NCBI GenBank assembly: GCA_944321005.1
Contig: CALUJT010000014.1
Span: 1 to 17,296, forward strand
Direction of reading: 5' to 3'
Source: an uncultured Atopobiaceae bacterium
Lineage (GTDB): Bacteria > Actinomycetota > Coriobacteriia > Coriobacteriales > Atopobiaceae
Length of the DNA: 17,296 nt
Shown here one piece after another: positions 1-17,296 of the stretch. A model generated the notes under the pieces. That model searched no databases and was not told the origin of the DNA. It saw only the letters and a list, made by a program, of their open reading frames with translations. A program made the translations under genes and the position numbers. Within the stretch, counting starts at the first letter, position 1. Each line of letters opens with the position of its first letter.

Positions 1-75
1 GGAGCCAGCAATCGGACTCGAACCGATGACCCCCGCTTTACGAGAGCGGTGCTCTACCAACTGAGCTATGCTGGC
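1..75 (-). tRNA. tRNA-Thr (anticodon CGU)
   Basis: Read on the minus strand, the sequence folds as a full cloverleaf. The acceptor strands are GCCAGCA (75-69) and TGCTGGC (10-4), the D arm is TAGCTCAGTTGGTAGAGC, and the anticodon stem CCGCT/AGCGG encloses the loop CTCGTAA. The T arm carries GGTTCGAGTCC. The anticodon CGT lies at 42-40 and reads threonine ACG codons. Base 3 is the discriminator (U), and bases 2-1 give the CC of an apparently encoded CCA whose last A falls outside the window. Confidence 0.95.
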
Positions 76-500
76 GCGGTCTCTTATCTTACGAGAAGAC
101 CGGACGGCGCGCAAGCCCCCATTTGCGAGGTCGCAAGCGGATAAGCCCACGTGCCGAGAGGGGCAGCGCGGTGGCTCGCTTCCGTATCGCCCAGCGCCGC
201 GCAACGCAAAAGTTGCGGCGAGATTGTGGAGCCATTCGCCATAACCGAGAAGGGTGCGACGCCCGACACCGTAACAGAACACCGTTTTCCCAGTTCAAAC
301 GTACAAGTAGAAGCTCCGCCGGTTCTTCTCGCCAAACTAAAGCGCAGGTTGAACGGACCCGCGGCCAATTTGAAACCCAGCTGAAACTTCAACAGAATAC
401 TGAACGTTTGAGAAGCACGGCCAGAAACCCGCATATCCGCAGCTTAGACATGCCAAAGACGCTTGACGGTGGGCCATGGGACGAACAGGAGAGAATCAAG
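76..500. other. Intergenic region between tRNA-Thr and the binding-protein operon
   Basis: I see no convincing gene in these 425 bases. The frame of the downstream lipoprotein happens to stay open to about 123, but its translation here is Arg/Ser-rich with no signal peptide or ribosome site, so I treat it as chance. A weak plus-strand promoter candidate is TTGAAA (370-375), 17 bp, CAGAAT (393-398), which would leave a leader of about 95 nt. An interrupted hairpin (CGCCGC...AAC / GTTGCGGCG) lies near 190-216. Confidence 0.4.
86..114 (-). promoter_or_regulatory. Probable promoter of tRNA-Thr
   Basis: On the minus strand a -35-like TTGCGC (114-109) lies 17 bp from a -10-like TAAGAT (91-86). This puts the start site a few bases before the mature tRNA 5' end at 75. 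The spacing is ideal, and no other promoter is visible so close to the tRNA. Confidence 0.5.
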
Positions 501-1325
501 GTGAACGTTACACGCAGGGGGTTCGGGGCGCTCGCGATCGCCTCGCTCTTTGGCGCGGGTTCGCTTGCCGGGTGCGACGAGGGCATCGTCGTGCCGGGCG
601 GCAAGGGGACCATCAGGGCGGGCGTCCGAGCGGACGTCATGAACTTCGGCTACCTCAACGAGCAGACCGGCAACTACTACGGCCTGGAGATAGACCTCGT
701 GAACAGACTCGCCGAGCGCCTTGGCTACGGCGAGGTGGAGTTCGTGACCGTCCTGCCGGAGAACCGCAAGGAGATGCTGCTCGACGGCGAGATAGACCTC
801 ATCTGCGGCTGCTACTCCATCGCCGACTCGCGCCTCGAGAACTTCGACTTCTCCCCCGCCTACTACGACGACAAGGTCGTGGCGGTGGTGCAGAACTCCT
901 CTATGACCGAGACCATCGACGACCTCAGGGGCCGCTCCTTCGGCACCATGGCCGGCTCCAACGCCGCGCCGCTGCTCTCCATCAAGCTCTACGAGATCGG
1001 CTTCTCCAACGGCGAGGTCGTCACCGCCAACGAGGACAACTCCGACTGCACCTTCGACACCTGGCGCCTGCTGCAGTTCCCCAGCTACCAGGAGCTCTCG
1101 GACGCCCTCGAGGCCGGCGACGTGGACGCCATGGTGCTGGACAGCGCCATCGCCCAGACGTACCTGGACGACAAGCGCGCCGTGCTCGAGGACTTCGTGG
1201 TGGCCGAGCAGTCCTACGGCGTGGCCACGCAGAAGGGCTCCGAGCTCTCCCAGCCCGTGGCGGACGCGGTGCAGGAGATGCTCGACGACGGCACCATCGA
1301 AGCGCTCGTGAACAAGTGGAACTAG
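501..1325 (+). CDS. Family 3 extracellular solute-binding lipoprotein
   Basis: This 274-residue protein probably captures a polar amino acid or similar small solute outside the membrane. The GTG start at 501 is chosen because AGGAGA (487-492) lies 8 bp upstream and a clean signal peptide follows. That peptide has a twin-arginine-like TRRGFGA (residues 4-10), a hydrophobic stretch, and the lipobox LAGC with Cys25 as the lipidated residue. Residues 61-74 (GLEIDLVNRLAERL) fit the family 3 signature, and the two-lobed SBP_bac_3 fold seems complete. Binding proteins normally sit beside an ABC permease and ATPase; none is here. Instead a Cache-MscS channel gene starts 12 bp downstream, so the two are probably co-transcribed. 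The ligand cannot be read from sequence. Export by Tat rather than Sec is an inference from the RR pair. Confidence 0.87.
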   Translation: MNVTRRGFGALAIASLFGAGSLAGCDEGIVVPGGKGTIRAGVRADVMNFGYLNEQTGNYYGLEIDLVNRLAERLGYGEVEFVTVLPENRKEMLLDGEIDLICGCYSIADSRLENFDFSPAYYDDKVVAVVQNSSMTETIDDLRGRSFGTMAGSNAAPLLSIKLYEIGFSNGEVVTANEDNSDCTFDTWRLLQFPSYQELSDALEAGDVDAMVLDSAIAQTYLDDKRAVLEDFVVAEQSYGVATQKGSELSQPVADAVQEMLDDGTIEALVNKWN

Positions 1326-1337
1326 GGAGGCCCAACG

Positions 1338-4300
1338 ATGCAGATGTCACGCAGCCTCAAGGTGAAGATCGCGGCGATCGTGCTCGCCGCCGTCGCGAGC
1401 ATCGTCGTCATGGGCGTGCTCCTCACCAACATGCAGGGGGCGCTCACCCGCGCCAACTATGACGCCGAGATGGCCGAGGAGGCCAAGCAGCTCTCCGTCC
1501 TTCTCGACGAGGCGACGGAGGAGAACGCCCAGAACAAGGAGACCTACGACGCCATCTACCAGTCCAAGGCGCAGAGCCTCTCCTTCATGGCGGCCAACGA
1601 GACGGGCTTCGAGGCCACGGACGCCAAGATGCGCGAGTACCAGGAGCTCCTGGACGTGGACAACGTGCTCGTGGTGAGGGCCGACGGCACCGTGGTGGCC
1701 AAGGCGGCCGACACGCGCGCCGACTTTGCCGCCGCCCGCTTCAACTACCTGCGCGAGTCCATCTCCACCGGGGAGCCCTCGCGCGCCGTTGAGATCGACC
1801 TGCCGGACGAGGTGTGGAACACCCGCTACTACGCCGCGCGCATAGATGACGAGACCATGGTCGTCATCGAGCAGGACCCCGTCGAGCTCCACGAGCTCCT
1901 GGACTCCACCGGCTCCACCGCGAGCGTGCTCAAGAACATCCAGATAGGCCAGGACGGCTACGTCTTTGCCCTCTCCGCGCAGACCTACGTGATCGAGTAC
2001 CACCCCAACGACCGCCTCGTGGGCGCCGACGCGCTCGACGCGGGCATCAGGGTGGGCAGCCTCGAGGACGGCTACACGGGCTGGATGAGGCTCGACGGCC
2101 AGGAGATCTATGGCCGCGTGTGCCACATCGGCGACACCTACTACGTCGAGGCCGTCCCCGCGGCGGACATGAACGCCTCGGGCGCCGTCACCGTGGGCGT
2201 CATCCTCTTCGTGTTCTCCGTGGTGGCCGCCTCCATGGCGCTCTACGGCATCTTCGTCCTGCGCGAGGACGAGCGCAGCGGTCACTCCGAGGAGAACCTG
2301 CGCACCTTCGCCGGCGCGCGCGTGAACCGCCGCATCGCCAGCAGGGCCGCCGTCCTCTCCGCGGTGGGCTTCCTCGCCGTGATGATCATCTCCTTCTACA
2401 TGCAGACGCTCTTCGCCCTCTCCTCCCAGTCCCTCACGCTCACCGAGCGCGTGGACCAGGTGGCCTCCACCATCGAGCGCAGCCAGGACCGCGCTGAGGA
2501 GCTCGAGAGCCAGTACAACGAGCGCTACCTCTCCAAGGCGCGCGTCGCCGCCTACGTCCTGGACCGCAACCCCGGGCTCGCCACGCGCGAGAAGCTCCAG
2601 GAGCTCGCGGACGTCCTGCAGATCCAGTACCTCTTCACGTTCGACCTCGCCGGCACCATGACGGCCACCAACTCCAACTTCACCAACTTCGTGCTCTCCG
2701 AGGACCCCGAGGACCAGTCCTACGACTTCCGCAAGCTCCTGCAGGGCGTGGACTACGTGGTGCAGGAGGCCGGCCCCGACGAGGTCTCCGGCGAGCTCAG
2801 GCAGTACATCGGCGTGACCACCCACGACGAGTCCGGCACCGTCAACGGCTTCGTCCAGCTAGGCATCCGTCCCACGCGCCTGGAGACCCTGCTCGAGAGC
2901 GTCAAGATCGAGAACGTCCTCGACGGCGTGCAGGTGGGCGTGGACGGCTTCGCCTTCGCCGTGAGCAAGGCAGACGGCACCTTCGCCTACTACCCCAATG
3001 AGAACACCGTGGGCAAGCTCGCCACCGACTGCGGCATGACCGAGGACGAGCTCAGGGACGGCTACAGCGACTACATCACCGTCAACGGCGAGGAGCTCTA
3101 CGCGGCCTCCGCCGAGACCAGCGACTACTACGTCTTTGCCGCCGGCCCCGACGGCGCGCTCATGGCCGAGCGCGGCCCGCTCACCATGGCCACGGGCGGC
3201 GTCGCGCTCGTCTGCTTCGTCGTCATCTTCGGCCTCATGGTCCTCGAGCCCCTGCCCAAGCAGGTCGAGGGCGAGAGGAGCGCCGAGAAGGACGAGAAGG
3301 TCGACGGGCGCCCCCACATGGTCGACGTCACCGTGGGCGGCCGCACCATGCGCACCGTAAGCGCCGCGAGCCGCTGGTTCCACCGCTCCTTCAACTGGTA
3401 CGAGATGTCCCCCGAGCAGAAGCTCGGCACCGTGCTGCGCTGGTTCGTGGGCGCCGCGGTGATCATCGTATGCCTCGCCGTCATCTTCAAGGACGCGATC
3501 TTCGAGAGGGGCTCCATCTTCGCCTACATCCTCGGCGGCAACTGGCAGCACGGGCTCAACATCTTCGCCGTCACGGCGTCGATCATGTTCGCCTGCGTGA
3601 TTGCCACGGTCGCGGCGATCCTGCAGAAGGTCCTCATGCTCGTCGCCCGCGTGGTGGAGGCCCGCGGCGTGACCATGTGCCGCCTCATCGCGAGCGTGGT
3701 CAAGTACGCCTCCGTGATCTGCGCGCTCTACTGGTGCCTCGCCCTTCTCGGCGTGGACACGGCGACGCTGCTCGCCTCGGCCGGCCTTCTCACCTTCGCG
3801 GTCTCGCTGGGCGCCAAGGACATCGTGACCGACATCATCTCCGGCCTCTTCATCATCTTCGAGGGCGAGTTCCGCGTGGGCGACATCATCCAGGTGAGCG
3901 GCCAGCGAGGCACCGTCATGGAGATCGGCGTGCGCACCACCAAGATCAACGACGGCTCCGGCAACATCCTGGTGCTGCGCAACTCCAACATCTCCAACGT
4001 GGTCAACATGACCAAGGAGCACTCCTACGCCGCCGTCGAGGTGGGCATCGAGTACGGCGAGAGCCTCGAGCGCGTGGAGAACATCCTCTCCAAGGAGTTC
4101 CCCAACATCAAGAAGCGCCTGCCCGCCATCGTGGAGGGCCCGTTCTACAAGGGCGTCACCATGCTCGCGGACAACTCCGTCAACATCAAGATCGTGGCGG
4201 AGTGCGCCGAGAAGGACCGCATGCCCCTCACCAACGACCTCAACCGCGAGATCAAGCTGCTCTTCGACAAGTACGACATCTCGATCCCGTTCCCGCAGGT

Positions 4301-4451
4301 CGTGGTCAACCAGCCCATCGAGTTCAAGAAGGCCACCTACGCCGAGAAGCTCGCCGCCGACAAGTTCAACGCCGAGCAGAAGGAGGCCATCAAGAACATG
4401 GTGGACGAGGACGAGGACTTCGACGACTTCAACGACTCCGACCGCCGCTAG
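1338..4451 (+). CDS. Double-Cache sensor fused to MscS-type mechanosensitive channel
   Basis: This 1037-residue membrane protein starts at ATG 1338, with AGGGAGG (1324-1330) 7 bp upstream. Visible order: TM near residues 9-31; extracellular module to about 283, with the Cache-like run IQIGQDGYVFAL and a later YHPNDRLVGA; TM pair near 284-306 and 337-360 joined by a charged loop; a second extracellular module to about 615, with VQVGVDGFAFAV and YYPNENTVGK; TM near 617-638; a cytoplasmic linker; three TM helices near 702-720, 740-765 and 786-806; then the MscS pore helix (808-840, ASAGLLTFAVSLGAKD) and beta domain (VGDIIQVSGQRGTVMEIG from 847). The C-terminus is very acidic. MscS channels open under membrane tension; Cache domains bind small ligands. 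The two modules align with each other and look like an internal duplication. Ligand gating, perhaps through the upstream binding protein, is inference. Confidence 0.88.
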   Translation: MQMSRSLKVKIAAIVLAAVASIVVMGVLLTNMQGALTRANYDAEMAEEAKQLSVLLDEATEENAQNKETYDAIYQSKAQSLSFMAANETGFEATDAKMREYQELLDVDNVLVVRADGTVVAKAADTRADFAAARFNYLRESISTGEPSRAVEIDLPDEVWNTRYYAARIDDETMVVIEQDPVELHELLDSTGSTASVLKNIQIGQDGYVFALSAQTYVIEYHPNDRLVGADALDAGIRVGSLEDGYTGWMRLDGQEIYGRVCHIGDTYYVEAVPAADMNASGAVTVGVILFVFSVVAASMALYGIFVLREDERSGHSEENLRTFAGARVNRRIASRAAVLSAVGFLAVMIISFYMQTLFALSSQSLTLTERVDQVASTIERSQDRAEELESQYNERYLSKARVAAYVLDRNPGLATREKLQELADVLQIQYLFTFDLAGTMTATNSNFTNFVLSEDPEDQSYDFRKLLQGVDYVVQEAGPDEVSGELRQYIGVTTHDESGTVNGFVQLGIRPTRLETLLESVKIENVLDGVQVGVDGFAFAVSKADGTFAYYPNENTVGKLATDCGMTEDELRDGYSDYITVNGEELYAASAETSDYYVFAAGPDGALMAERGPLTMATGGVALVCFVVIFGLMVLEPLPKQVEGERSAEKDEKVDGRPHMVDVTVGGRTMRTVSAASRWFHRSFNWYEMSPEQKLGTVLRWFVGAAVIIVCLAVIFKDAIFERGSIFAYILGGNWQHGLNIFAVTASIMFACVIATVAAILQKVLMLVARVVEARGVTMCRLIASVVKYASVICALYWCLALLGVDTATLLASAGLLTFAVSLGAKDIVTDIISGLFIIFEGEFRVGDIIQVSGQRGTVMEIGVRTTKINDGSGNILVLRNSNISNVVNMTKEHSYAAVEVGIEYGESLERVENILSKEFPNIKKRLPAIVEGPFYKGVTMLADNSVNIKIVAECAEKDRMPLTNDLNREIKLLFDKYDISIPFPQVVVNQPIEFKKATYAEKLAADKFNAEQKEAIKNMVDEDEDFDDFNDSDRR

Positions 4452-4590
4452 CCCGGGCTTGACAGTTTGCTCAGGTCAAACTGTCAAGTTACGAGAAGGG
4501 GGCCGGACGCAGTTTCGCGTCCGGCCCCCTCTTTGTCTGTCAAGGCGCTCGACTTGACAGTTTGACCTGAGCAAACTGTCAAGCCCGGGC
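4451..4590. repeat. Perfect 38-bp inverted repeat with self-palindromic arms
   Basis: The left arm (4451-4488) is exactly the reverse complement of the right arm (4553-4590). Each arm starts or ends with the palindrome GCCCGGGC and contains its own hairpin, CTTGACAGTTTG - CTCAGGT - CAAACTGTCAAG. An extra half copy, CTGTCAAG, lies at 4537-4544. The left arm overlaps the channel gene's stop codon by one base, and the right arm ends two bases from the end of aspS. The 64-bp centre holds a separate terminator hairpin. The whole element fills the gap between the two convergent genes. Confidence 0.95.
4498..4540 (+). terminator. Rho-independent terminator of the binding-protein/channel operon
   Basis: A perfect 13-bp GC-rich stem (4498-4510 with 4517-4529, GGGGGCCGGACGC) and a 6-nt loop are followed by TCTTTGTCTGT. 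The T-rich tail favours plus-strand termination. For aspS on the other strand the tail is poor, so aspS may rely on the flanking arm hairpins. Confidence 0.85.
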
Positions 4591-4592
4591 GA

Positions 4593-6362
4593 CTACATGA
4601 GCCGCAGGCCGACCTCCTTGAGCTGCTTGCCCGAGACCTCGCTCGGCGCGTCGGACATGAGGTCGGAGCCGGAGGACGTCTTGGGGAACGCCATGACGTC
4701 GCGGATGGAGTCCTCCCCCGCCAGCAGCATGCACACGCGGTCGAGGCCGAGCGCGAAGCCGCCCATGGGAGGCGCGCCGTACTCGAGGGCGTCCATCAGG
4801 AAGCCGAACTGCTCGCGCGCGCCCTCCACGGTGAAGCCCATGAGCTCGAGCATGTCGAGCTGCATCTGTGCGTTGTGGATACGCATGCCGCCGCCGCCCG
4901 CCTCGCAGCCGTCCATGACGAAGTCGTACGTGGCCGAGCCGATGGCCAGCGGGTCCGCCTTGATCTTCTCGACGTCGAGCTCGGTGGGGAGGGTGAAGGG
5001 CTGGTGCTCCGCCTCGTAGCGCTTGGCCTCGTCGTCCCAGTGGAAGAGTGGGAAGTTCACGACCCAGAGGAAGTCGTGGCCCTCGCGCGGGACGTCGAGC
5101 GCGTTCGCCATGTGCAGGCGCATCCCGCCCAGAATCTCGTCGGCCGTCTTGCGGTCGGACACGGCAAACATCACGAGGTCGCCGAGCTCGACGCCCATCT
5201 CCTCGCGCAGGGCCGCCATCTCCTCGTCGGAGAAGAACTTGACGATGGGGCTGTTGACCGAGCCGTCCTCGCGGAAGGCGATCCACGCGAGGCCCTTGGC
5301 GCCAAACTCCGCCGCCACGTTGGCGAGCTTGTCGATCTGCGCGCGCGGCCACTTGCCGGCGCCCTTGGCGTTGATGGCCTTGACGTACTGGCCCTCGGTC
5401 GCCGCGGCGGACGCGAAGAGCTTGAACTTGGAGGAGCCGAAGATGCCCGTCACGTCGTGGAGCTCCATGCCGATGCGCGTGTCCGGCTTGTCGGAGCCGT
5501 AGGTGTCCATCGCGTCCCAGTAGTCCAGGCGGCGCAGCGGCGTGGGCATCTCCACGCCCATGCGGCCGAAGGCGTCGGCCAGGACGTCCTCGAGCTCGCC
5601 CATGACGTCGTCCTGCTCGACGAAGCTCATCTCGATGTCCACCTGCGTGAACTCGGGCTGGCGATCGGCGCGCAGGTCCTCGTCGCGGAAGCACTTGGCA
5701 ACCTGGTAGTAGCGCTCGACGCCGCCCACCATGAGGAGCTGCTTCAGGAGCTGCGGGGACTGCGGCAGAGCGTAGAAGTGGCCGGGCTGGGTGCGGGACG
5801 GAACGAGGAAGTCGCGCGCGCCCTCGGGCGTGGACTTGAAGAGGGCCGGGGTCTCGACCTCCATGAAGTCGCGCCCGTGCAGCGCCTCGCGCAGGGCGAA
5901 GGTGAAGTCGGAGCGCAGCTTGAGGTTGGCCATCATGCGCGGACGGCGCAGGTCGAGGTAGCGGTAGCGCAGGCGCACGTCCTCGGAGGTGTCCACGTGG
6001 TCCTCGATCTGGAAGGGCGGCGTCTTGGAGGAGTTGAGGACCTCGATGTTGTCGATGAGGACCTCGACGTCGCCGGTGGAGAGCTTGGCGTTCTCCATGC
6101 CCTCGGGGCGCTCGCGAACCACGCCGGTGACCTTGATCGGCCACTCGGAGCGGATGGTCTCGGCCGCGTGGAACGCCTCGCCGCCGGAGGGCGCGGGGTC
6201 AAAGGAGACCGGCGTCACGCCGTCGCGGTCGCGCCGGGCGACGAAGAAGGGGCCGCCGTGGTCGCGGCGGTGCCACACCCAGCCCGTGAGCGTGACCGTC
6301 TGGCCGATGTGCTCGCGGCGCAGCTCGCCGCAGGTGTGGGTGTGCATGGTGTGGTTGTCCAT
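4593..6362 (-). CDS. aspS: Aspartyl-tRNA synthetase
   Basis: This class II synthetase of 589 residues charges tRNA-Asp with aspartate in the cytoplasm. The N-terminal OB-fold anticodon domain is visible (VTLTGWVWHRRDHGG). Class II motif 1 is near FMEVETPALFKSTPEGARDF, motif 2 is FRDEDLRADRQPEFTQ (about residues 222-238), and motif 3 is GGFALGLDRV (about 534-543). The length allows the bacterial GAD insertion between motifs 2 and 3. ATG 6362 is preferred because AAGAAAGG (rc of 6373-6380) lies 10 bp upstream; an in-frame TTG at 6368 would leave only 4 bp. hisS, a common partner, is not next to it. A -10-like TACAAT lies about 95 bp upstream, and I see no T-box leader. Its 3' end abuts the inverted repeat shared with the channel operon. 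Confidence 0.97.
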   Translation of the reverse strand: MDNHTMHTHTCGELRREHIGQTVTLTGWVWHRRDHGGPFFVARRDRDGVTPVSFDPAPSGGEAFHAAETIRSEWPIKVTGVVRERPEGMENAKLSTGDVEVLIDNIEVLNSSKTPPFQIEDHVDTSEDVRLRYRYLDLRRPRMMANLKLRSDFTFALREALHGRDFMEVETPALFKSTPEGARDFLVPSRTQPGHFYALPQSPQLLKQLLMVGGVERYYQVAKCFRDEDLRADRQPEFTQVDIEMSFVEQDDVMGELEDVLADAFGRMGVEMPTPLRRLDYWDAMDTYGSDKPDTRIGMELHDVTGIFGSSKFKLFASAAATEGQYVKAINAKGAGKWPRAQIDKLANVAAEFGAKGLAWIAFREDGSVNSPIVKFFSDEEMAALREEMGVELGDLVMFAVSDRKTADEILGGMRLHMANALDVPREGHDFLWVVNFPLFHWDDEAKRYEAEHQPFTLPTELDVEKIKADPLAIGSATYDFVMDGCEAGGGGMRIHNAQMQLDMLELMGFTVEGAREQFGFLMDALEYGAPPMGGFALGLDRVCMLLAGEDSIRDVMAFPKTSSGSDLMSDAPSEVSGKQLKEVGLRLM

Positions 6363-6462
6363 GGGCAACGTGCCTTTCTTCCCTGCCGCCCCGTGTCGTA
6401 CGGGCGGCGACTGACGGAGGGCGGCGACGTGGCGTAGACAGCGCAGCGTCGCGCGCGTGGCG

Positions 6463-6468
6463 ATTGTA
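6463..6468 (-). promoter_or_regulatory. Candidate -10 element for aspS
   Basis: TACAAT on the minus strand is a good -10 hexamer, placing the start site near 6456 and a leader of about 95 nt before aspS. The -35 region is unconvincing (TTCCGA-like at a short 15-bp distance), so this is only a candidate. Confidence 0.4.
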
Positions 6469-6524
6469 CTACGGGCGCATCGGTCGGAACACGGGTGAAA
6501 GCAGACGGAAACGTGGGGCCGGGA

Positions 6525-7877
6525 CTATCCCCTCTCTAGGGCGAGCTCGATGAACTCGTGCGACCGATGCGCAAGATAAAGCGGTATGTTGAGCAGGTCT
6601 CCGTCAAGAGACAGGTTCCGTGCCGACAGACGCACCCTGAGCGGTGTGGACTCGCCATGCTTTCGCGCATAGTACCTGAGGCTCGGCGAGTCAACCGATA
6701 CGCCCGACTTGACCTCGATGGGAACGACGGCATTGCCTGCCTGAACGAGCAGATCGACCTCATGGCGCGGCTTATCGTTCGTCCAATAGCGGGGGGTCAC
6801 GTCGAGCTGCGGGGCGATGGCCTGCAGGGCGTAGTTCTCCGCGAAGGCGCCCTTGAACTCGGAGAACAGGGCGTCCCCCATTGCAAACGCCGACGAGCTG
6901 AGGCGAGACATCCTCCGCAGCAGCCCCACGTCCAGGCAATAGACCTTGAAGGCGGATGGGTCATCGTAGGCGCTCAGCGGAATTCCCTTGCCGCTGTTGA
7001 GGCGCACGCGCTCCGCGAGGCCCGCGTCAACCAGCCACTCGACCGCGTCCTCGTACTCCCGCGCACGCGCCCCCTCACGAACGAGCCCCCACACGAACTT
7101 CTTGTTCTCACGGGCAAGCTGCGCCGGAAGGGAGTGCCAGACCAGGGAGAGCTTGGCAAAGAGCGCACCGCCTCCGTGCTTCGCGAAGTCGCGCTCGTAG
7201 GAGTCAAGAAGATCCGAGAGCACCTTGTCCACAACGTTCATGTTCCCCGTCTGCGTCCAGCGAAGAACCGCCTCGGGCATACCGCCCGTGGAGAAGAACT
7301 GGCGGAGACGCTCCACCAGCTGATGCGAGAAGAGATCGGGAACGGGAGAGAAGTCGTCAATCTGGCGCACAAACTCGTCTAGGTTCCCCGCGCCGACGGC
7401 ACGAAGGAACTCGGAGAACGTGAGCGGGCACATCTCGAGAAACTCAACCTTGCCCACCGGGAACGAGGAGGATGCCCGAGCCAGTCGCACGCCCAGCAGC
7501 GACCCCGCGCATGCCACGTGATACTCTGGCGCCTCATCGCAAAAGTACTTGAGCGCCCCGATGGCGGCCGGACAGTCCTGTATCTCGTCGAGCACGATCA
7601 GGGTCTCTCCGGGGTCAATGGGCTGCCCCGTCGCCAGCGAGAGATTCGACAGGATGCGGCGCGGATCTCTCGTCTGCGAGAAGAGCTGTGCATACTCGCT
7701 CGGCACCCCGGGGGCAATCTCCTCGAGCGACACGTAGACGCAGTTGCGGTAGCGCGTTCTCCCAAACTCCCTGAGGACCCATGTCTTGCCCACCTGGCGG
7801 GCTCCCTTAATCATGAGCGGCTTGCGAAACGGGGAGCCCCTCCAGGAGTCGAGCTTATGCAAAACATCGCGCTCCAT
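6525..7877 (-). CDS. AAA_14/DUF4143 family ATPase, copy 1
   Basis: This 450-residue P-loop ATPase has Walker A GARQVGKT (residues 25-32), Walker B TLIVLDE (92-98) followed by IQD, and the C-terminal DUF4143 half. Near the C-terminus, D375...E388-V-K390 (EVDLLV...VPIEVKSG) fits a PD-(D/E)xK nuclease core. The start ATG has GGAAGGA (rc of 7884-7890) 6 bp upstream. The cellular role of the family is not established; members are often multicopy and patchily distributed, and some archaeal relatives are viewed as mobile. Its promoter lies within the inverted repeat at 7895-7945, which suggests autorepression or control by a dimeric regulator. It is not a recent duplicate of the second ATPase: the Walker A and nuclease-like regions differ widely. 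Confidence 0.85.
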   Translation of the reverse strand: MERDVLHKLDSWRGSPFRKPLMIKGARQVGKTWVLREFGRTRYRNCVYVSLEEIAPGVPSEYAQLFSQTRDPRRILSNLSLATGQPIDPGETLIVLDEIQDCPAAIGALKYFCDEAPEYHVACAGSLLGVRLARASSSFPVGKVEFLEMCPLTFSEFLRAVGAGNLDEFVRQIDDFSPVPDLFSHQLVERLRQFFSTGGMPEAVLRWTQTGNMNVVDKVLSDLLDSYERDFAKHGGGALFAKLSLVWHSLPAQLARENKKFVWGLVREGARAREYEDAVEWLVDAGLAERVRLNSGKGIPLSAYDDPSAFKVYCLDVGLLRRMSRLSSSAFAMGDALFSEFKGAFAENYALQAIAPQLDVTPRYWTNDKPRHEVDLLVQAGNAVVPIEVKSGVSVDSPSLRYYARKHGESTPLRVRLSARNLSLDGDLLNIPLYLAHRSHEFIELALERG

Positions 7878-7894
7878 GTCGAATCCTTCCTAAT

Positions 7895-7945
7895 ATGTGA
7901 TATCAGTCACATTTTACCCAAGGTAATCTGTGACTGATATCACAT
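7895..7945 (-). promoter_or_regulatory. Perfect 17-bp inverted repeat over the promoter of DUF4143 ATPase copy 1
   Basis: The arms are 7895-7911 and 7929-7945 (ATGTGATATCAGTCACA and its reverse complement). Each arm contains TGTGA-N6-TCACA, identical to the core consensus of CRP-type regulators, and the two palindrome centres are 33 bp apart. A -10-like TAAAAT (rc of 7911-7916) sits between the arms, with a weak -35 (TATCAG) in the distal arm 17 bp away. The proximal arm covers the expected start site. A factor bound to both arms would probably repress the gene. Confidence 0.75.
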
Positions 7946-8242
7946 TTTTGGATAATGAAATGGACCTCTCTTCAGTCCGGCCATCTCGTCAAATGGCTCC
8001 TGTCCCACAATGAGCGTTACCTCCTCGAAGCGGCTTTCTGTAAGGGCTTCCCAGAGCGCACGCACCTCGCACTCGCAGGCACCGGCCTCTCCAACGTCCG
8101 CAGCGAGTTTGAGGTCGACTCCCAGCTCGCCTTCTGGCGCGACAGCCGCAAGCGAGAGGTGCCCTACGCACGCGTTGGGATGCTCCTCGGACTTGACGGC
8201 TGACTCGTGCGCGTGGAAGAGCGCCCGGCGAGAAAAGCAACG
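7940..8242 (-). pseudogene. C-terminal remnant of a third DUF4143 ATPase
   Basis: Immediately after the TAG of the upstream ATPase (8243-8245) the same frame stays open for 100 codons, to a TGA at 7942-7940 inside the inverted repeat. From about 8130 down to 8000 its translation, GACECEVRALWEALTESR then FEEVTLIVG, matches the end of the intact ATPase (GTCEREIRALWEALAESR, REEATLIVG). The DNA from 8006 resembles that from 8339 over about 90 bp. There is no ATPase domain and no start codon with a ribosome site. It is best read as the decayed tail of another copy, left by tandem duplication or by loss of a neighbouring gene. Confidence 0.8.
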
Positions 8243-9598
8243 CTACGCAGAGCCGCCCCCATTCAGCAGCCACTTCCACGCCGGCACCTGGACGATGCGC
8301 CCTCCGTCCTTCTCGAGCACCGCATCGGGACCCCTGCCCACAATGAGCGTGGCCTCCTCGCGGCGGCTCTCAGCGAGGGCCTCCCAGAGCGCGCGGATCT
8401 CGCGCTCGCACGTGCCGCCCTGGTCGACGTTGGCACACACCTGGTAGAGGTCGTAGAGCTCGCCCGAGAGCGCGTCACCGACGACAAAGTCGACCTCGTA
8501 GCCATGTCCCTTCGTACGCAGAGATGAGATCGCCTCACGGCGCATCCCCGGCATTCGCCTGCGAAGCTCGAGGTACACGATGTCCTCGAGCCTCTGGCCC
8601 TCGTCGAGCGCGTGAGCCGCCCCACCCGCAAGGGCAAGTCCCGGGTCGATCGCGTAGAGCTTAGGCTGGCTCGTAGTCGACTCGGAGAGCGAGAAGGAGA
8701 GCTCGCGAACGGTAAAGACGAGATATGCCTCCTGATAGTACGCAAGGAGGTCCCCGAGCGTCTCCTTGGTGGTAGAGAGCCCCGCTGCCTTGAGATCGCT
8801 GGTGGCCTTACGCAGGGACAGCTGCCGCGCGTTGAGCCCAAGGAGGCGCTGCGCGAAGAGTGCGGCCACCCGTGGCTGCCTCACGTTGTGTCGCTCGATG
8901 ACGTCGCGGGCCACGACACGCTGGACATAGGACTGCAGCAGGGCGACCGACTGGGTCGCCGGCAGGTCGAGCGTCGCCGGAAAGCCGCCGTCCTGGAGGT
9001 ACGTCCGGAACGCCCCCTCAAGCAGCATCGTCTCCTCAGTGGAGCGTGCGACGGCATCGACCCCCGGAATGCCCCTCGCAAGGGCATATTCTCTAAACGA
9101 GAAGGGCAGGAGCTCGAAGTCGAGGGCACGACCGCGAAACTCCGTCGCGATCTCCGTCGAGAGCATCTTTGACGAGGAGCCGCTCACGTAGATGGTCACC
9201 CTTCGTGTCCCGACGATGCGCCTGAGCCACGCACCCCAGTCAGACATCTCCTGGAGCTCGTCAAAGAAGAGGTAGGCGCCCTCCGAGAGCGCCGACGGGT
9301 TGATGGCGTAGAAGGCCTCGAGCACCGCATCCCCCGTCGCAGGGGTGATGGGCTTGAGGCGGTCGTCGTCGAAGTCGAAGTAGCAGATGCGCGCCGAGGG
9401 CACGCCGGATGAGAGCAGCCGGTCCATCTCCTGGAACAGCCGATAGGACTTTCCGCTGCGCCGCATTCCAATGACGACCTTGACCAGGTTGCCGGCACGA
9501 GGCACCAACGGTTCCCCAAGGTCGAGCTCGCGGGGGATTATGGGCCTGTATGCGTCGAGCGAGAAGTCCCGGAGCGTGGCAGCGATGATCTCGTTCAT
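8243..9598 (-). CDS. AAA_14/DUF4143 family ATPase, copy 2
   Basis: This 451-residue protein has Walker A GMRRSGKS (residues 44-51), Walker B YLFFDE (109-114) followed by LQE, and a sensor-like YVSGSSSKML. The C-terminal DUF4143 part has EVDFVV. The position where copy 1 has E-x-K reads LYQV here, so a metal-dependent nuclease site is not intact by the usual rule. The start ATG has GGGAGG (rc of 9605-9610) 6 bp upstream. The function of this ATPase class is unknown. The promoter is buried in the 23-bp inverted repeat just upstream, and a remnant of a close homologue lies directly downstream in the same frame. The gene is probably monocistronic and switched by whatever binds the repeat. Confidence 0.85.
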   Translation of the reverse strand: MNEIIAATLRDFSLDAYRPIIPRELDLGEPLVPRAGNLVKVVIGMRRSGKSYRLFQEMDRLLSSGVPSARICYFDFDDDRLKPITPATGDAVLEAFYAINPSALSEGAYLFFDELQEMSDWGAWLRRIVGTRRVTIYVSGSSSKMLSTEIATEFRGRALDFELLPFSFREYALARGIPGVDAVARSTEETMLLEGAFRTYLQDGGFPATLDLPATQSVALLQSYVQRVVARDVIERHNVRQPRVAALFAQRLLGLNARQLSLRKATSDLKAAGLSTTKETLGDLLAYYQEAYLVFTVRELSFSLSESTTSQPKLYAIDPGLALAGGAAHALDEGQRLEDIVYLELRRRMPGMRREAISSLRTKGHGYEVDFVVGDALSGELYDLYQVCANVDQGGTCEREIRALWEALAESRREEATLIVGRGPDAVLEKDGGRIVQVPAWKWLLNGGGSA

Positions 9599-9612
9599 GG
9601 AGGACCTCCCAT

Positions 9613-9667
9613 ATTGGCAGTCTTACTCTGCCAATATTATCAAAATTGGCAGAGTAAGACTGCCAAT
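9613..9667 (-). promoter_or_regulatory. Perfect 23-bp inverted repeat over the promoter of DUF4143 ATPase copy 2
   Basis: The arms 9613-9635 and 9645-9667 are exact reverse complements. Each arm is itself nearly palindromic (ATTGGCAG - 7 nt - CTGCCAAT), giving two dyads whose centres are 32 bp apart. On the minus strand TTGGCA (9666-9661, distal arm) can serve as -35, and TTGATA (9643-9638, 17 bp away) or GATAAT (9641-9636, 19 bp) in the spacer as -10. The proximal arm would then cover the start site, right before the ribosome site. Confidence 0.8.
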
Positions 9668-9734
9668 TTTGAAGCTTCCAGAGAGAAGGGGACCTGGCGC
9701 GAGCGGCGTGCGCAAACGGCATAGGGCTGCGAAA

Positions 9735-9749
9735 TCGGAAGGCCTCCGA
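9735..9749 (-). terminator. Weak hairpin after the restriction operon
   Basis: Two bases after the stop of the helicase gene, a short stem TCGGA/TCCGA with a 5-nt loop is followed by TTT on the minus strand. The stem is only 5 bp, so this is a weak terminator candidate. Confidence 0.3.
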
Positions 9750-9751
9750 AC

Positions 9752-12714
<2,963 letters not shown>

Positions 12715-12715
<1 letters not shown>

Positions 12716-14235
12716 CACTCACCGTCCGACATCTTATGAATGAACGACTCGATGAACTCAATTTCATCCGGAGATAGCCCGAACCGGCCATACATCGCCT
12801 CGTCGGTTGGCTCACTGTCAAACTCAATCAGAGGGACAAACTGGAACTTGTCTCTTGATAAGTTAATTGATGATAGAGTCTGAGCAATAAGAACGCGCGC
12901 AAACTTTGTTCGTAGGTAGAGGCTGAGATAGTTCGCCTCCCGCTCAGAGTCGAAAGGACCAACTACAAGATAGGAGTCCGTGCATACATCGCTTGGGCCG
13001 AGCACCTCAACTTTTGAGAGAACACGCATCTTGCCTTCTTTATCAGGCTCGCAAGCATGCTCGTAGATGATGCGGCTGAGCATTACCTTCCATTTGCCTA
13101 GATATTCCTGCCCCTTTTCATTGGTTCCCTGTCTCACATAGGTGATTCCTTTGCTTGAATGGAGACGGTAGTCGGACGAGTCCTCTTGGACATTGCTTCC
13201 TCTGGCAGATGTTGAATAGCCAAATGGATTACGCGACGAGACAATCTCTGACAGAAATCGTGGCGAGCTTTCCAAGATTTTATGTATGACCGAAATGGCC
13301 TGGTTGTAGCGAACAAACACAGGAAATTCGCTCAGCGATCTCTTTGCAGTAGTCCTCGACGTTCCACGAATCGTGGTTATCTCGCAATCATCTTCACAAT
13401 CCCTCTCCCACAGGAAATAATTAACGCCCCCTCCAACGCTGTTCTGAGGAAAGCAATCTTTGGCATTAACGTAGTCGACAAGTTTGGTGATATGCCTGTC
13501 ATGAAGCATCTCGTCCCGAAATGAGCTCAGCCCCTTCCCTCCCGCAAAGTATCGAGAGGGAATAATCATCGTAAGATACCGTGGAGCTAGCTTCTTGGCC
13601 TGTTGCACAAAGAGGTGGTAGATAGGTGACGCGCTGGCTTTATTCCCCCCATCGCTCAGTTGGTACGGCGGATTGCCTACGATCACGTCGAATTTCATGC
13701 CAAAGATCTCCTCGGGGCTGCTGGTGTGGATGAACTCGTAGGCGTGCGATTCGAGGCCCTCGTCGCGGTCGTACTGCTCCTTCGAGGCGCCGCAGTAGAC
13801 GCACTTCCCGTTCCGCCACGTGTGCCGGATGTTGCGGTAGCGGATGTTCCCCTCGTTTCCGTCGAACTCGCTCACCGAGAATCTGCCGTTGGGGAACTTC
13901 GAGCAGTAGAGGCTCCGGCGCGAGAGCAGGGCCGTCATCTCGGTAATGGCGATGCCGTAGAGCTGCTCGTGCATTACGTGGTCCACGCGCTCCTGCAAGT
14001 CCGGGTAAACGTCTTCGAGTCCCCTGATGAAGCGCTTGGCGGCCTCCCGCAGAAAGACGCCGGACTTACAGAACGGATCCAAGATCTTGACGGAAGGGTC
14101 GCGCCAGAGATCGTCAGGCAGCAGGTCGAGAACCTGGTTCGCCAGCTCCGGAGGGGTGAGGACCTCGTCGTTTGAGAGGTTGGCCAGACACATGAGGACG
14201 TCAGGGTTGTAGGTGCGCTCGAGGAGGCTAGCCAT
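12715..14235 (-). CDS. Eco57I-like N6-adenine DNA methyltransferase
   Basis: This 506-residue methyltransferase is the modification and probably specificity subunit. SAM-binding motif I is DPFCKSG (53-59); the K in place of G matches my memory of this family and is not obviously a defect. Catalytic motif IV NPPYQLSDGG starts at N188 and marks adenine-N6 methylation. A CVYCG pair lies between the motifs. The start ATG 14235 has GGGAGGTG (rc of 14243-14250) 7 bp upstream and overlaps the end of the previous gene by 8 bases; the 3' end overlaps the helicase start. From about 13660 to the end, the coding sequence becomes clearly richer in A/T than everything around it. That is the part expected to hold the target recognition domain, which suggests it came by recombination. 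Confidence 0.88.
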
Positions 14236-14908
14236 TTCGACCCACCTCCCGATAGTCCACAGGTGGGTACTCGCATACGGCAGAGGGGAGGTATGCCTGG
14301 GTCTCCTCGTCGAACTCCCAGCTGATCACGTTGTTCTTCTCGCCGAAGAGCGAGAGCGTCTCTCCCTTGTCGACGTTGCCCTCGAGCAGCTCGCTCAGGA
14401 GGAAGTCGCGACGCTTCACGAGGTCGCCGGTCACCATCGACCACTCGGCGAAGCGGATGGGCTCGCCGTCCGCGTCCTTGAGGGTGAGGGCGTCGCCGCA
14501 CAGGATGTTCTTCCCGAGCACGTAGCGCACCGCGTCGAGAAACGCCTGCTCCACGGCGTCCCTGATTGCCGAGCGCGCGTCCTTCTCCACGATGGCGAAG
14601 AGCCGCTCGCGGCACTCCTCGACGTTGTCCTCGAGGATGTCGACGCCGTAGACGCTGCTCACGGCCACGAAGGCGTATCGCTGGTACTCGGCCGGGCTCC
14701 TGCGGTAGCGAGAGGAGACCACGACGAGCTTGCGGCGCAGAACCTCCGCGATGAAGTTGCCGTTGCCGCACGCGGGCTCCAGAAAGCGTGACTCGATGCG
14801 CTCCGTCTCGACCTTCACCAGATCGAGCATGGCATTGACCTCACGCTCGGCAGTGAACACCTCGCCGTGATCGACCACGCGCCGTCGCGATTTGACCTGA
14901 CCAGCCAC
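14228..14908 (-). CDS. Small SAM-dependent DNA methylase-like subunit
   Basis: First gene of the restriction operon, 226 residues. It shows the N6-methylase opening DHGEVFTAEREVNAMLDLV and a good SAM-binding motif I, EPACGNGNF (44-52), but I find no (D/N)PPY catalytic motif. It is also about half the usual length of an active enzyme. It may therefore act as a partner that binds SAM or DNA for the NPPY subunit encoded next. The GTG start at 14908 has GGAG (rc of 14917-14920) 8 bp upstream. Translation of the next gene overlaps its end by 8 bases. Its promoter region is shared with the divergent XRE regulator and holds operator-like boxes, so it is probably under that regulator's control. Confidence 0.78.
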   Translation of the reverse strand: MAGQVKSRRRVVDHGEVFTAEREVNAMLDLVKVETERIESRFLEPACGNGNFIAEVLRRKLVVVSSRYRRSPAEYQRYAFVAVSSVYGVDILEDNVEECRERLFAIVEKDARSAIRDAVEQAFLDAVRYVLGKNILCGDALTLKDADGEPIRFAEWSMVTGDLVKRRDFLLSELLEGNVDKGETLSLFGEKNNVISWEFDEETQAYLPSAVCEYPPVDYREVGRNG

Positions 14909-14919
14909 GTTCTCAACTC

Positions 14920-14988
14920 CAACTGTTGGTTATATTCAACAGTTGAGCTATAGCAGAAATTGGGTCTGTGGTCTATCTCCAACAGGTG
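14920..14988. promoter_or_regulatory. Operator boxes and divergent promoters of the restriction operon and its regulator
   Basis: Box A CAACTGTTG (14920-14928) and box B CAACAGTTG (14937-14945) are perfect reverse complements and near-palindromes, 17 bp centre to centre. A degenerate third box, CAACAGGTG, lies at 14980-14988. For the regulator, TTGGTT (14926-14931), 17 bp, TATAGC (14949-14954) is a plausible plus-strand promoter running through boxes A and B. On the minus strand TATAAC between the boxes may serve the methylase gene. Box A also lies next to the methylase ribosome site. This layout suits control by an XRE-type dimer. Confidence 0.65.
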
Positions 14989-15017
14989 GTTTGTCGACGC
15001 TCGGTAGCCTTTTGAGC

Positions 15018-15326
15018 ATGGATACCAGCGCAACCTGTACATTTGTCCGAACGAAGGTCGGCGAGCGAATTGGCGAGCTCTGCAAGGAGAAGCGGCTCAG
15101 CCAGTCCAAGCTCTCGGCGATGATCTCTATGGATCGCTCCCACCTCAACCAGCTCATCGGCGGGAAGAGCAACGTGACGCTCGACGTGCTCGTCAAAATA
15201 GCTGACGGGCTCGGCGTTCCCCTGACCGATCTCTTCTTCGGGCTCGGGGACGTGCCGCCGCACCAGCTCGTCGAGTACAACGGCGCGGAGTGCGCGAGGG
15301 CCGCCCATGCCCGGGAGCGCGCGTAG
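15018..15326 (+). CDS. XRE-family regulator, probable controller protein of the restriction system
   Basis: This 102-residue DNA-binding protein has a Cro/C1-type helix-turn-helix near residues 28-49 (SQSKLSAMISMDRSHLNQL), followed by the typical helix LDVLVKIADGLGVPLTDLF. It is divergent from the restriction-modification operon and separated from it by palindromic boxes. Controller (C) proteins of many restriction systems have this size, fold and position; they delay the nuclease until methylation has occurred. ATG 15018 is chosen because the HTH fold begins soon after. I see no real Shine-Dalgarno site, which would fit a weakly translated message, and upstream in-frame TTG codons lie too close to the promoter. 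It could also be an unrelated XRE repressor of the island. Confidence 0.8.
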   Translation: MDTSATCTFVRTKVGERIGELCKEKRLSQSKLSAMISMDRSHLNQLIGGKSNVTLDVLVKIADGLGVPLTDLFFGLGDVPPHQLVEYNGAECARAAHARERA

Positions 15327-15359
15327 CCCACTCGCCGCCCTCCCCCGGGCGCGCCGACG

Positions 15360-15367
15360 TGCTACCC
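15360..15367 (+). promoter_or_regulatory. Possible extended -10 before the HAD hydrolase
   Basis: TGCTACCCT starting at 15359 reads like an extended -10 (TGn-TACCCT) and would give a leader of about 55 nt. No good -35 is seen, which is normal for extended -10 promoters but leaves the call weak. Confidence 0.25.
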
Positions 15368-15429
15368 TTGCGTGCGGCCGACGACGCCGGATACAGCGCG
15401 CGTGCGCGGCCTCGAGTGAAGGAGCGTGC

Positions 15430-16089
15430 ATGCCCGCATACAAGACCGTGGTGTTCGACCTCGACGGAACCCTGCTCGACACGCTCGAGGACCTCATGCT
15501 CTCCACCAACGCCGCGCTGGCAGCGCACGGGATGCCCGAGCACACGCTCGACGACGTGCGGCGCTTCGTGGGAAACGGCGTGGCCCTGCTCATCAAGCGA
15601 GCCGTGCCCGCCGGCACGCCGGCAGACGTGGAGGCTGCGGTGCTCGAGGACTTCAAGCGCCACTACGGCGCGCACTGCGAGGACCACACCGGCCCCTACC
15701 CCGGGATCCCCGAGATGCTCGCGAGCCTGCGCGAGGCCGGCGTGGCGCTGGCGGTCGTGTCCAACAAGCCGGACTTTGCCGTGCAGGAGCTCGTGGAGCG
15801 TCGGTTCCCGGGAACCTTCGACGCAGTTCTGGGCGAGAACGAGGCCGCCGGCATCTCCAAGAAGCCGGCGCCCGCCATGGTGGAGGCGGCGCTCGCCCGC
15901 ATGGGTCGCGACCACGAGGGCATGGTCTACGTGGGCGACTCCGAGGTCGACGTGGCAACGGCCGCCAACGCGGGCTGCCCGTGCCTCAGCGTCACCTGGG
16001 GCTTCCGCACGCGTAAGGAGCTCGTGGACGCGGGTGCCACGACGTTCGTCGAGACTCCCGCGGAGCTCGCACGGGTCATCCTGGGCTAG
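15430..16089 (+). CDS. HAD hydrolase, phosphoglycolate phosphatase-like
   Basis: This 219-residue cytoplasmic phosphatase belongs to the HAD superfamily with an alpha-helical cap, in the Gph/PGPase group. All four motifs are present: I DLDGTLLD (D10 nucleophile, D12 acid/base), II VVSNK (S111), III K145 in KKPAPAM, IV VYVGDSEVD (D170, D174). The helical cap lies between motifs I and II. The length is normal for the group. ATG 15430 has AAGGAG (15419-15424) 5 bp upstream. By homology it could dephosphorylate 2-phosphoglycolate, but related enzymes act on other small phosphate esters or pyrophosphate, so the substrate stays open. Base composition returns to the GC-rich backbone here, so I place it outside the island. 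Confidence 0.9.
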   Translation: MPAYKTVVFDLDGTLLDTLEDLMLSTNAALAAHGMPEHTLDDVRRFVGNGVALLIKRAVPAGTPADVEAAVLEDFKRHYGAHCEDHTGPYPGIPEMLASLREAGVALAVVSNKPDFAVQELVERRFPGTFDAVLGENEAAGISKKPAPAMVEAALARMGRDHEGMVYVGDSEVDVATAANAGCPCLSVTWGFRTRKELVDAGATTFVETPAELARVILG

Positions 16090-16284
16090 CGGCCGCTCGT
16101 TCTTCTCGGCACGTCTGATGACACCTCCCGGGACGATTCCGGGACGCAACCGGTATGCAACCGGGAACGTTCGTGGAACCTCGCCAGACGCTCGCCTAAC
16201 AATTTGAGAACCGGCGCATAACACGCCGCTGCTCGGGTTACACTCTACCTAACGTCCGTTTGGCCTCCGTCGAAAGGAACCGCC

Positions 16285-16593
16285 ATGGGAAAGAAGGCAG
16301 CCGAGGCCCTCGACATCAACTACGATGGCCTGGTGGAGTACCTGCACTGCAACCACTCCGTCTACATGAAGATTGGCTCGTCCGTCTACTACCTCACCGA
16401 CTGCAACTATGAGTCCTGGCGCGCCCAGGACACGAGCCGTCGCAACGAGAAGAACCACTTCGTCGACTGCTCCGAGCTCGTTCCCACCGTCGACGAGTTC
16501 CTCGCGCTCCCCTTTGTCAACGGCAAGACCATCAAGGACGTCTTCGACCACGCCACGTTCTACGCCTCCCTCTCCGGCGAGAAGGACGAGTAG
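16285..16593 (+). CDS. Small acidic protein of unknown function
   Basis: I do not recognise this 102-residue protein. It has a good ribosome site (AAAGGA 16273-16278, 6 bp before ATG), backbone-like codon use and a strong hairpin about 30 bp after the stop, so it is a real, probably single-gene transcript. A -10-like TACACT lies at 16239-16244. The protein has no signal peptide or membrane segment. It is rich in Asp/Glu, Tyr and His, has three cysteines (in LHCNHS, TDCNYE and VDCSEL), and ends in an acidic tail (SGEKDE). The Cys/His content might bind metal, but no standard zinc motif is formed. Confidence 0.8.
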   Translation: MGKKAAEALDINYDGLVEYLHCNHSVYMKIGSSVYYLTDCNYESWRAQDTSRRNEKNHFVDCSELVPTVDEFLALPFVNGKTIKDVFDHATFYASLSGEKDE

Positions 16594-16623
16594 CGGCGGG
16601 TCCTCCTTATATCTGAGCTGACG

Positions 16624-16655
16624 GCGGGGCCGGTTCCTCTGGGGACCGGCCCCGC
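16624..16655 (+). terminator. Strong GC hairpin after the small acidic gene
   Basis: A 14-bp stem (16624-16637 with 16642-16655; GCGGGGCCGGTTCC against GGGACCGGCCCCGC, one G-T pair) closes a TCTG loop. No T tract follows, so it may act as a factor-dependent stop or as a 3' stabilising stem. Confidence 0.65.
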
Positions 16656-16719
16656 TGCCGTGCGCAGAGCTGCCGGTGGCCGCGCGACCGTACAGGGCGC
16701 GACCCATCACGCGTGGGCG

Positions 16720-16857
16720 GGGATTTCTAAAATCCCGAGTTGCGCGTCCTTCTCGGCACGCGTAACTCGGGATTGTTCGCGAATCTGCAGGAAAATCCCG
16801 ACCTGCGCATGGGATAGTTCGAAAACTATCGCGCGCAAGTCGGGATTCGCATAATCC
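16720..16857. repeat. Compound palindromic intergenic repeat (GGGATT/AATCCC units)
   Basis: Three stem-loops follow one another: GGGATTT-CTA-AAATCCC (16720-16736); ATCCCGAGTTGCGCGT (16732-16747) pairing with ACGCGTAACTCGGGAT (16758-16773) with one mismatch; and ATCCCGACCTGCGC (16795-16808) pairing with GCGCAAGTCGGGAT (16833-16846) with one mismatch, enclosing GATAGTT-CGAA-AACTATC (16813-16830). The last GGATT also pairs with AATCC at 16853-16857. The shared unit is ATCCCGA-NN-TGCGC. It resembles a REP-type element. A frame open across it on the minus strand is not a credible gene. Confidence 0.8.
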
Positions 16858-16886
16858 GGGGCTACGCGTCACCCGTCAAACGACGA

Positions 16887-16906
16887 GGGGCACCGCGCCG
16901 CGCCCC
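16887..16906 (-). terminator. Candidate terminator of gldA
   Basis: On the minus strand, about 20 bp after the gldA stop, GGGGC and GCCCC pair around a 10-nt GC-rich loop, followed by TCGTCGTTTG. The T content after the stem is modest. Confidence 0.35.
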
Positions 16907-16928
16907 GCCCTGGCTCAGCCGAAGGCGT

Positions 16929-17296
16929 CTACTCCGCGAGCGCCGCGCGACCGTAGGCGTCGGCCGCGAGCATGGCGGCGGCGACCTTCTCCGGCGTGAC
17001 CTCGAAGGGCATGTTGCCGAGGGTGTCGTTCTCCGCGCAGGCCAGCTTGGCGACCTCGAGCACGCGCTCGTAGCTCGCGTCCTCGACGCCGAGCTGCGCG
17101 AAGGTCACGGGCAGGCCCACCTCCACGCAGAAGTCGAGCACCTCGTAGAGCTCGTCGGCGTTCTCCAGCACGAGCTGGGTGAGCGTGCCAAAGGCGACCT
17201 TCTCGCCGTGGTAGTAGGCGTGGGTCTCGGGCATGGCGGTCATGCCGTTGTGGATGGCGTGCGCGCCGGCGAGGCCCGCCGACTCGAAGCCCAGGC
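16929..17296 (-). CDS. gldA: Glycerol dehydrogenase, C-terminal part (cut by window edge)
   Basis: The last 121 codons of an iron-containing-type alcohol dehydrogenase family protein are visible; the frame continues past the right edge, so the start is not seen. The enzyme oxidises glycerol to dihydroxyacetone with NAD+. The stretches GFESAGLAGAHAIHNG and YYHGEKVAFGTLTQLVLEN are close to the GldA family sequences I know and carry the two histidines that serve as metal ligands. An internal ATG at 17243 is not the start, because the conserved sequence runs on upstream of it. The stop at 16931-16929 gives the usual C-terminus. Confidence 0.92.
   Translation of the reverse strand, partial: LGFESAGLAGAHAIHNGMTAMPETHAYYHGEKVAFGTLTQLVLENADELYEVLDFCVEVGLPVTFAQLGVEDASYERVLEVAKLACAENDTLGNMPFEVTPEKVAAAMLAADAYGRAALAE

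Follow-up and report, generated by a model that had tools for sequence, protein, structure and literature searches.

We analysed a stretch of 17,296 nt (hereafter the window) from an uncultured Atopobiaceae bacterium of the class Coriobacteriia (assembly GCA_944321005.1, contig CALUJT010000014.1, positions 1 to 17,296 of the forward strand). Near its start lie two genes in tandem: one for a solute-binding protein (SBP) of the SBP_bac_3 family, and one for an MscS-type channel carrying two Cache modules, the latter being the subject of an earlier prediction made from the sequence alone (hereafter the original prediction). The SBP gene stops 12 nt before the channel ATG, and the two-gene unit is closed by an intrinsic-terminator-like site (Table 1). 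A terminator scan detected 2 sites, where shuffled sequences led us to expect 2.5; as this is no richer than the shuffles, the support for the site is the stem itself.

Table 1. Features of the SBP-channel unit. ORF, open reading frame; TM, transmembrane helix; AF2, AlphaFold2; PDB, Protein Data Bank.
Feature	Coordinates	Strand	Basis or remark
SBP_bac_3 lipoprotein, 274 aa, putative ligand-binding subunit	501..1325	+	Pfam; GTG start, lipobox LAGC, AGGAGA upstream
Tandem-dCache MscS channel, 1037 aa	1338..4451	+	ORF; MscS-family; own GGGAGG before ATG
TM1, residues 11-29	1368..1424	+	Hydropathy
Cache1, extracellular (predicted), dCache fold, residues 32-274	1431..2159	+	
TM2, residues 284-302	2187..2243	+	Hydropathy
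TM3, residues 337-355, leading into near-invariant FYMQTLF.LS	2346..2402	+	Hydropathy, alignment
Cache2, extracellular (predicted), dCache fold, residues 363-604	2424..3149	+	Pfam dCache_1 E 2e-8 (below cut-off), AF2 and PDB matches
TM4, residues 618-636	3189..3245	+	Hydropathy
Variable linker, residues 638-698, cytoplasmic by topology	3249..3431	+	Lowest conservation, 47% for 638-700
TM5, residues 699-717	3432..3488	+	Hydropathy
TM6, residues 744-762, MscS-TM1-like	3567..3623	+	Hydropathy; PDB profile alignments begin at position 745-747
TM7, residues 783-803, MscS-TM2-like	3684..3746	+	PDB profile alignment, AF2 model
Pore-lining helix, residues 808-842, MscS-TM3-like	3759..3863	+	Most conserved part, 82%
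MS_channel_2nd: lower pore helix and beta domain	3819..4016	+	Pfam
MscS C-terminal domain, residues 900-983	4035..4286	+	Pfam MS_channel_3rd E 0.005 (below cut-off)
Intrinsic-terminator-like site closing the two-gene unit	4497..4530	+	14-bp stem, T-rich tail

The original prediction described the channel as one TM, a Cache-like module, two TMs, a second such module, another TM, and then three TMs with an MscS pore and its beta domain. Hydropathy, Pfam, AF2 and PDB comparisons confirm this layout. PF00924 and PF21088 score above the Pfam cut-offs, revealing the MscS pore helix and beta domain. The best solved relative is 3udc, from Thermoanaerobacter (E 4e-46), which aligns over the pore, beta and C-terminal parts; the HMMER alignment extends through profile position 996 and thus covers the MscS C-terminal alpha/beta domain. 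Upstream of the pore, two TM-dCache-TM units follow one another (residues ~32-274 and ~363-604); the predicted topology places their Cache modules outside the cell. As anticipated, both fold as dCache in the AF2 models: between the TMs, a single long N-terminal helix bears two PAS-like sheets. Their structures resemble ligand-binding chemoreceptor domains. Sequence comparison with the PDB gave only weak dCache matches for Cache2 (E 0.017) and, for Cache1, no match of dCache fold. The two modules are homologous to each other and hence arose by duplication, in line with the earlier description of them as duplicated. The window's genome, 85% complete, yielded no dCache_1 match besides the channel.

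The association between the channel and the SBP is close. The search covered 296 genomes of the class, among them that of the window, and accepted channel matches at E ≤ 1e-40 and SBP matches at E ≤ 1e-30. A channel match is present in 43 of them, and in 40 of these (again counting the window's own) an SBP match immediately precedes it on the same strand. In 38 of the 40 pairs a gap of 8-43 nt separates the aligned ends; it is 58 nt in another pair and reaches 321 nt in G183, where the channel match begins only at residue 106. The reverse also holds: 39 of the 40 close SBPs (at least 49% identity) adjoin a channel, the fortieth (G243) being a truncated match in a genome without a channel match, and the remaining SBP relatives have at most 42% identity. 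In the first set of loci, which includes two duplicate pairs, 37 of 38 have the SBP, the sole miss being due to a flank that was too short. Across 34 loci, the SBP and the channel are equally conserved (64% mean pairwise identity each), with 62% and 64% for the Cache modules and 82% for the pore helix. SBP and channel distances correlate (r 0.77), as linkage alone would yield.

SBPs of this family usually serve transport, and we looked for other candidate partners. Clustering the ORFs of the window and 29 further loci revealed no additional family in more than 7 of the 30. This clustering relied on the longest ORFs that do not overlap, and antisense ORFs mask some of the real genes in genomes as rich in G+C as these; the SBP itself shows up partly as an antisense family. 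The clustering thus understates the conservation of neighbours, and we added a direct test for ATP-binding cassette (ABC) genes, comparing 50 ABC proteins of the own genome by tblastn with the window and 17 relative loci (n = 18). No importer-type ABC pair was found near the channel at the 17 relative loci, and an ABC gene was wholly missing at 10 of the 18. In the own genome, none of the 26 PF00528 permease and 79 PF00005 ABC-ATPase matches falls on the window's contig. We therefore rejected the idea that this is the SBP of an ABC importer; with no importer-type permease or ATPase beside the pair, the channel is the sole constant membrane partner of the SBP.

The pocket of the SBP keeps the canonical residues of amino-acid binders. 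The product contains SBP_bac_3 (PF00497, E 1e-24) and is predicted to be lipidated. Among solved structures it comes closest to PEB1a (2v25, 'major cell-binding factor', E 1.5e-22), with the glutamate-binding protein 5eyf in third place. Among 36 aligned SBPs 58 positions are invariant, including R89, C104, S106, R111, Y196 and D214, which stand opposite Arg, Thr, Thr, Arg, Tyr and Asp of PEB1a. The Ser/Thr, Arg and Asp that hold the amino and carboxyl groups of the ligand are thus retained (S106, R111, D214). In the mycobacterial GlnH these groups are gripped by Ser164, Arg169 and Asp250, and the acidic side chain by Arg147, Trp232 and Thr162 (excerpts from PMC6069109). The spacing of R89, S106 and R111 (17 and 5) is identical to that of Arg147, Ser164 and Arg169 in the excerpted account of GlnH. 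Our best guess from these residues is that the ligand is an amino acid, Asp or Glu.

These results lead us to favour, with slightly less than even confidence, a two-protein sensory channel in which an amino acid reported by the SBP modulates the MscS-type pore. The lipoprotein, anchored outside the membrane, would bind an amino acid from the surroundings, with Asp or Glu the likeliest candidates. Once closed and loaded with its ligand, it would dock onto the tandem dCache ectodomain, and the resulting change may be relayed through both TM-dCache-TM units to TM4, the linker, TM5 and finally the pore. Opening would then be set jointly by ligand and membrane tension, as co-stimuli, and the system might serve to match the efflux of ions and osmolytes to the amino acids available in the gut or to its osmolarity. 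The narrower proposal that the lipid-anchored protein is an Asp/Glu-binding Venus flytrap that opens or closes the pore through the duplicated dCache modules is more tentative. A chemical input to the channel, as originally predicted, is plausible. The original prediction overlooked the co-encoded SBP, whose canonical amino-acid pocket makes it the likelier ligand receptor.

Several observations weigh against the SBP acting through the channel in this manner. Three genomes with divergent channels (G237, G250 and G290) have no SBP at E ≤ 1e-30; G237 and G290 match the channel over part only, and G250 retains the architecture in full. Two in-frame TAG stops interrupt the SBP match of G145, whose channel is open. 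The SBP and channel trees conflict at three loci (L034 in G254, L035 in G093 and L036 in G188); at L034, an f2 channel is paired with an f1/f3-type SBP (support 0.74). Such conflicts suggest that SBPs may have been exchanged between channels or gene pairs, which would be compatible with a shared docking surface, yet cautions against strict one-to-one coevolution. The pair is also not always alone, as 6 of the 18 loci (L060, L061, L062, L066, L067 and L069) have an exporter-type ABC gene at a distance of 65-1439 nt from the channel. These genes fuse membrane and ATPase parts (alignments of ~500-590 aa), and at two further loci an ABC ATPase lies 3.1 kb and 6.1 kb away, respectively. Since an exporter-type gene is found neither at the window nor within that distance at 11 others, we did not count it as part of the system; it is not a constant neighbour but may be linked to the channel in some lineages. 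In the pocket, GlnH Thr162 and Trp232 (as given in the excerpts of PMC6069109) correspond to Cys104 and Tyr196 here (Thr and Tyr in PEB1a), which makes the Asp/Glu specificity uncertain. Finally, pLDDT, the AF2 confidence measure, is below 60 over most of the pore region of the channel model.

The original prediction took the two Cache modules to be the ligand sensors. If they bound small extracellular ligands through another motif and gated the channel themselves, the SBP would be an additional or independent receptor. This is unlikely in our view, although both modules are complete dCache folds like the ligand-binding domains of chemoreceptors, and three divergent channels do without the SBP. 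They also hold conserved pocket candidates: R134, R163, Y164, Y165 and E178 in Cache1 and F464 and Y462 in Cache2 are invariant in a 17-sequence alignment, with Y462 replaced by Phe in some members outside it. The published amino-acid motif of dCache domains starts with YxxxRxWY, followed by D (excerpts from PMC9901441), and the roles of its residues are described in excerpts of PMC11237719. YxxxRxWY is missing from all 124 full-length homologues and from the window protein. When the modules are aligned by MAFFT with 12 dCache domains from relatives in the class and the result is read by eye, Cache2 has Gln at the motif Arg, Tyr at the Trp and Gly at the Asp, and Cache1 has Glu at the Asp. The motif thus does not support the Cache modules as standard amino-acid sensors. 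Of the earlier claim of two ligand sensors, the folds stand; the sensing part does not fare well, and the SBP is the likelier receptor. The conservation of the Cache modules fits a role in docking or relay, or a ligand of another kind.

We consider somewhat more doubtful still that the channel is an ordinary tension-gated osmotic valve, with ectodomains that are structural (clustering, cell-wall contact) and an SBP that serves another purpose. The close match of the pore, beta and C-terminal parts to 3udc would suit such a valve, as would a shortage of other safety valves: no match to MscL was found in the own genome, which is 85% complete. The same genome has a second MscS-type gene, and hence plain tension relief need not fall to this channel. 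Moreover, ~500 residues of ectodomain, conserved at 62-64% mean pairwise identity, and a dedicated SBP would be superfluous for gating by tension, and 21 of the 31 genomes of the same genus do without the gene, matching in MscS pore regions only. Of the 'chemically gated osmotic valve' initially proposed, the chemical half is plausible and the osmotic half is conjectural. A transport pair, in which the SBP feeds an amino acid to the pore or senses or recaptures glutamate released by the channel, as MscCG releases glutamate in Corynebacterium, is improbable: the usual role of SBP_bac_3 proteins and the lack of an importer beside the pair speak for it, but an MscS pore is passive and wide, and the dCache ectodomains would be idle in presenting a substrate.

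All 43 class matches fall within the window's own order, in four families, and a search of the phylum found the channel in 9 of 396 genomes, all of the same order. Named loci are from Olsenella and Collinsella, and named proteins include those of Collinsella, Eggerthella, Gordonibacter and Enteroscipio, under database names such as 'mechanosensitive ion channel domain-containing protein'; these genera point to Coriobacteriales as the order. The gene is patchy within the order. In the window's own genus 10 of the 31 genomes have it, 8 full-length and 2 broken (G001, G024). Copies are also broken in the assemblies of G183 and G293, so that, assembly errors aside, the system looks dispensable. 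A divergent subfamily (~30-40% identity; L051/G250, proteins P0121-P0128) retains the whole two-dCache MscS architecture. Its members differ in the SBP, which still adjoins the channel at 35% identity in the divergent G208 (L052) and is missing from G250. Searches with divergent members retrieved 8 and 9 proteins, each among only ~8000 scored candidates, so that members may exist elsewhere, and a scan of genome contigs with a single-protein query gave 4 loci. At L054 (G290), a large MscS-type ORF at 6207-9822 is matched only from ~residue 446 of the query, and a lipoprotein-like ORF lies downstream of it.

The rest of the window holds features of other kinds. At the very edge, ahead of the SBP gene, positions 1-75 (-) encode a tRNA-Thr (cgt). 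A 31-bp near-palindrome, present as an inverted pair at 4458-4488 and 4553-4583, flanks the terminator-like stem (folding z -17). It has 57 matches in the own genome (33 forward, 24 reverse, at most 2 mismatches, some sites being counted on both strands) against 0 for a reversed control. Its copies are often inverted pairs, and the genome has four Y1-type transposase genes, one of which (C161) is near such copies; we regard it as a REPIN/RAYT-like element. Two AAA_14/DUF4143 ATPases, at 6525-7877 (-) and 8243-9598 (-), both match the PADLOC candidate PDC-S01 models. A restriction-modification-like cluster follows at 9752-14908 (-), with an Eco57I methylase ORF, a second methylase-like ORF and a T5orf172/type IIG-like ORF; the three ORFs overlap slightly, and a Cro-type helix-turn-helix regulator adjoins it at 14943-15326 (+).

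MscS channels are known chiefly as stretch-gated safety valves. In gut bacteria of the Collinsella/Eggerthella group we find a two-gene module that looks like a channel under external chemical control, beyond membrane stretch alone. If this is true, these bacteria could couple membrane permeability directly to an external chemical through an MscS channel equipped with an extracellular nutrient receptor, and chemical gating of MscS would become testable with two defined proteins. The ligand domain of ionotropic glutamate receptors also has the SBP fold, and the module would have arrived at amino-acid gating of a channel separately from that line. It would also add a channel to the outputs of systems that combine an SBP with tandem sensors, such as GlnH-GlnX.

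The components of the module are recognizable in several known systems. With the MscS superfamily (3udc and 3t9n; MscS, MscK and YbiO of E. coli) the channel shares the pore helix, beta domain and C-terminal domain. It differs in an N-terminal extension of ~740 residues, which spans the membrane five more times and carries both extracellular dCache modules, and in being paired with an SBP gene. Channels of the bCNG group likewise fuse an MscS pore to a ligand domain, but theirs is a cytoplasmic cyclic-nucleotide domain, in contrast to the extracellular dCache modules and SBP found here. The dCache_1 chemoreceptors PctA, Mlp24 and PscC have in common an extracellular dCache fold between TMs, whereas here the output is a channel, each chain has two dCache units and the amino-acid motif is missing. 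By analogy only, the alpha2delta subunits of animal calcium channels also provide an ion channel with two dCache_1 units, although, in the excerpts from PMC9901441, they are separate glycosylphosphatidylinositol-anchored subunits with a VWA domain that serve another channel family. In general terms, the MscS superfamily includes subfamilies with ligand-binding domains and with large extracellular loops (excerpts from PMC4560390). A literature search, with most subscription journals outside its scope, found no description of an MscS pore that bears a duplicated dCache ectodomain and has an SBP dedicated to it. The nearest working analogue would be GlnH-GlnX-PknG, with a pore replacing the kinase. 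In mycobacteria and other Actinobacteria, the Asp/Glu-binding lipoprotein GlnH is linked genetically to the membrane protein GlnX, for which two periplasmic sensor modules are predicted and through which GlnH is proposed to signal to the PknG kinase (excerpts from PMC6069109). Both systems co-encode an SBP lipoprotein with a membrane protein of two sensor modules, and the Arg of the Asp/Glu pocket is common to both. They differ in that the GlnX modules are predicted four-helix bundles with a kinase output (same excerpts), and those studied here are dCache modules with a channel pore. PknG_TPR scored above cut-off in none of the 296 class genomes, and the SBP was accordingly rejected as a PknG-linked GlnH. 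Each part of the module is thus known from elsewhere; what appears new, within the literature covered, is their union in one system.

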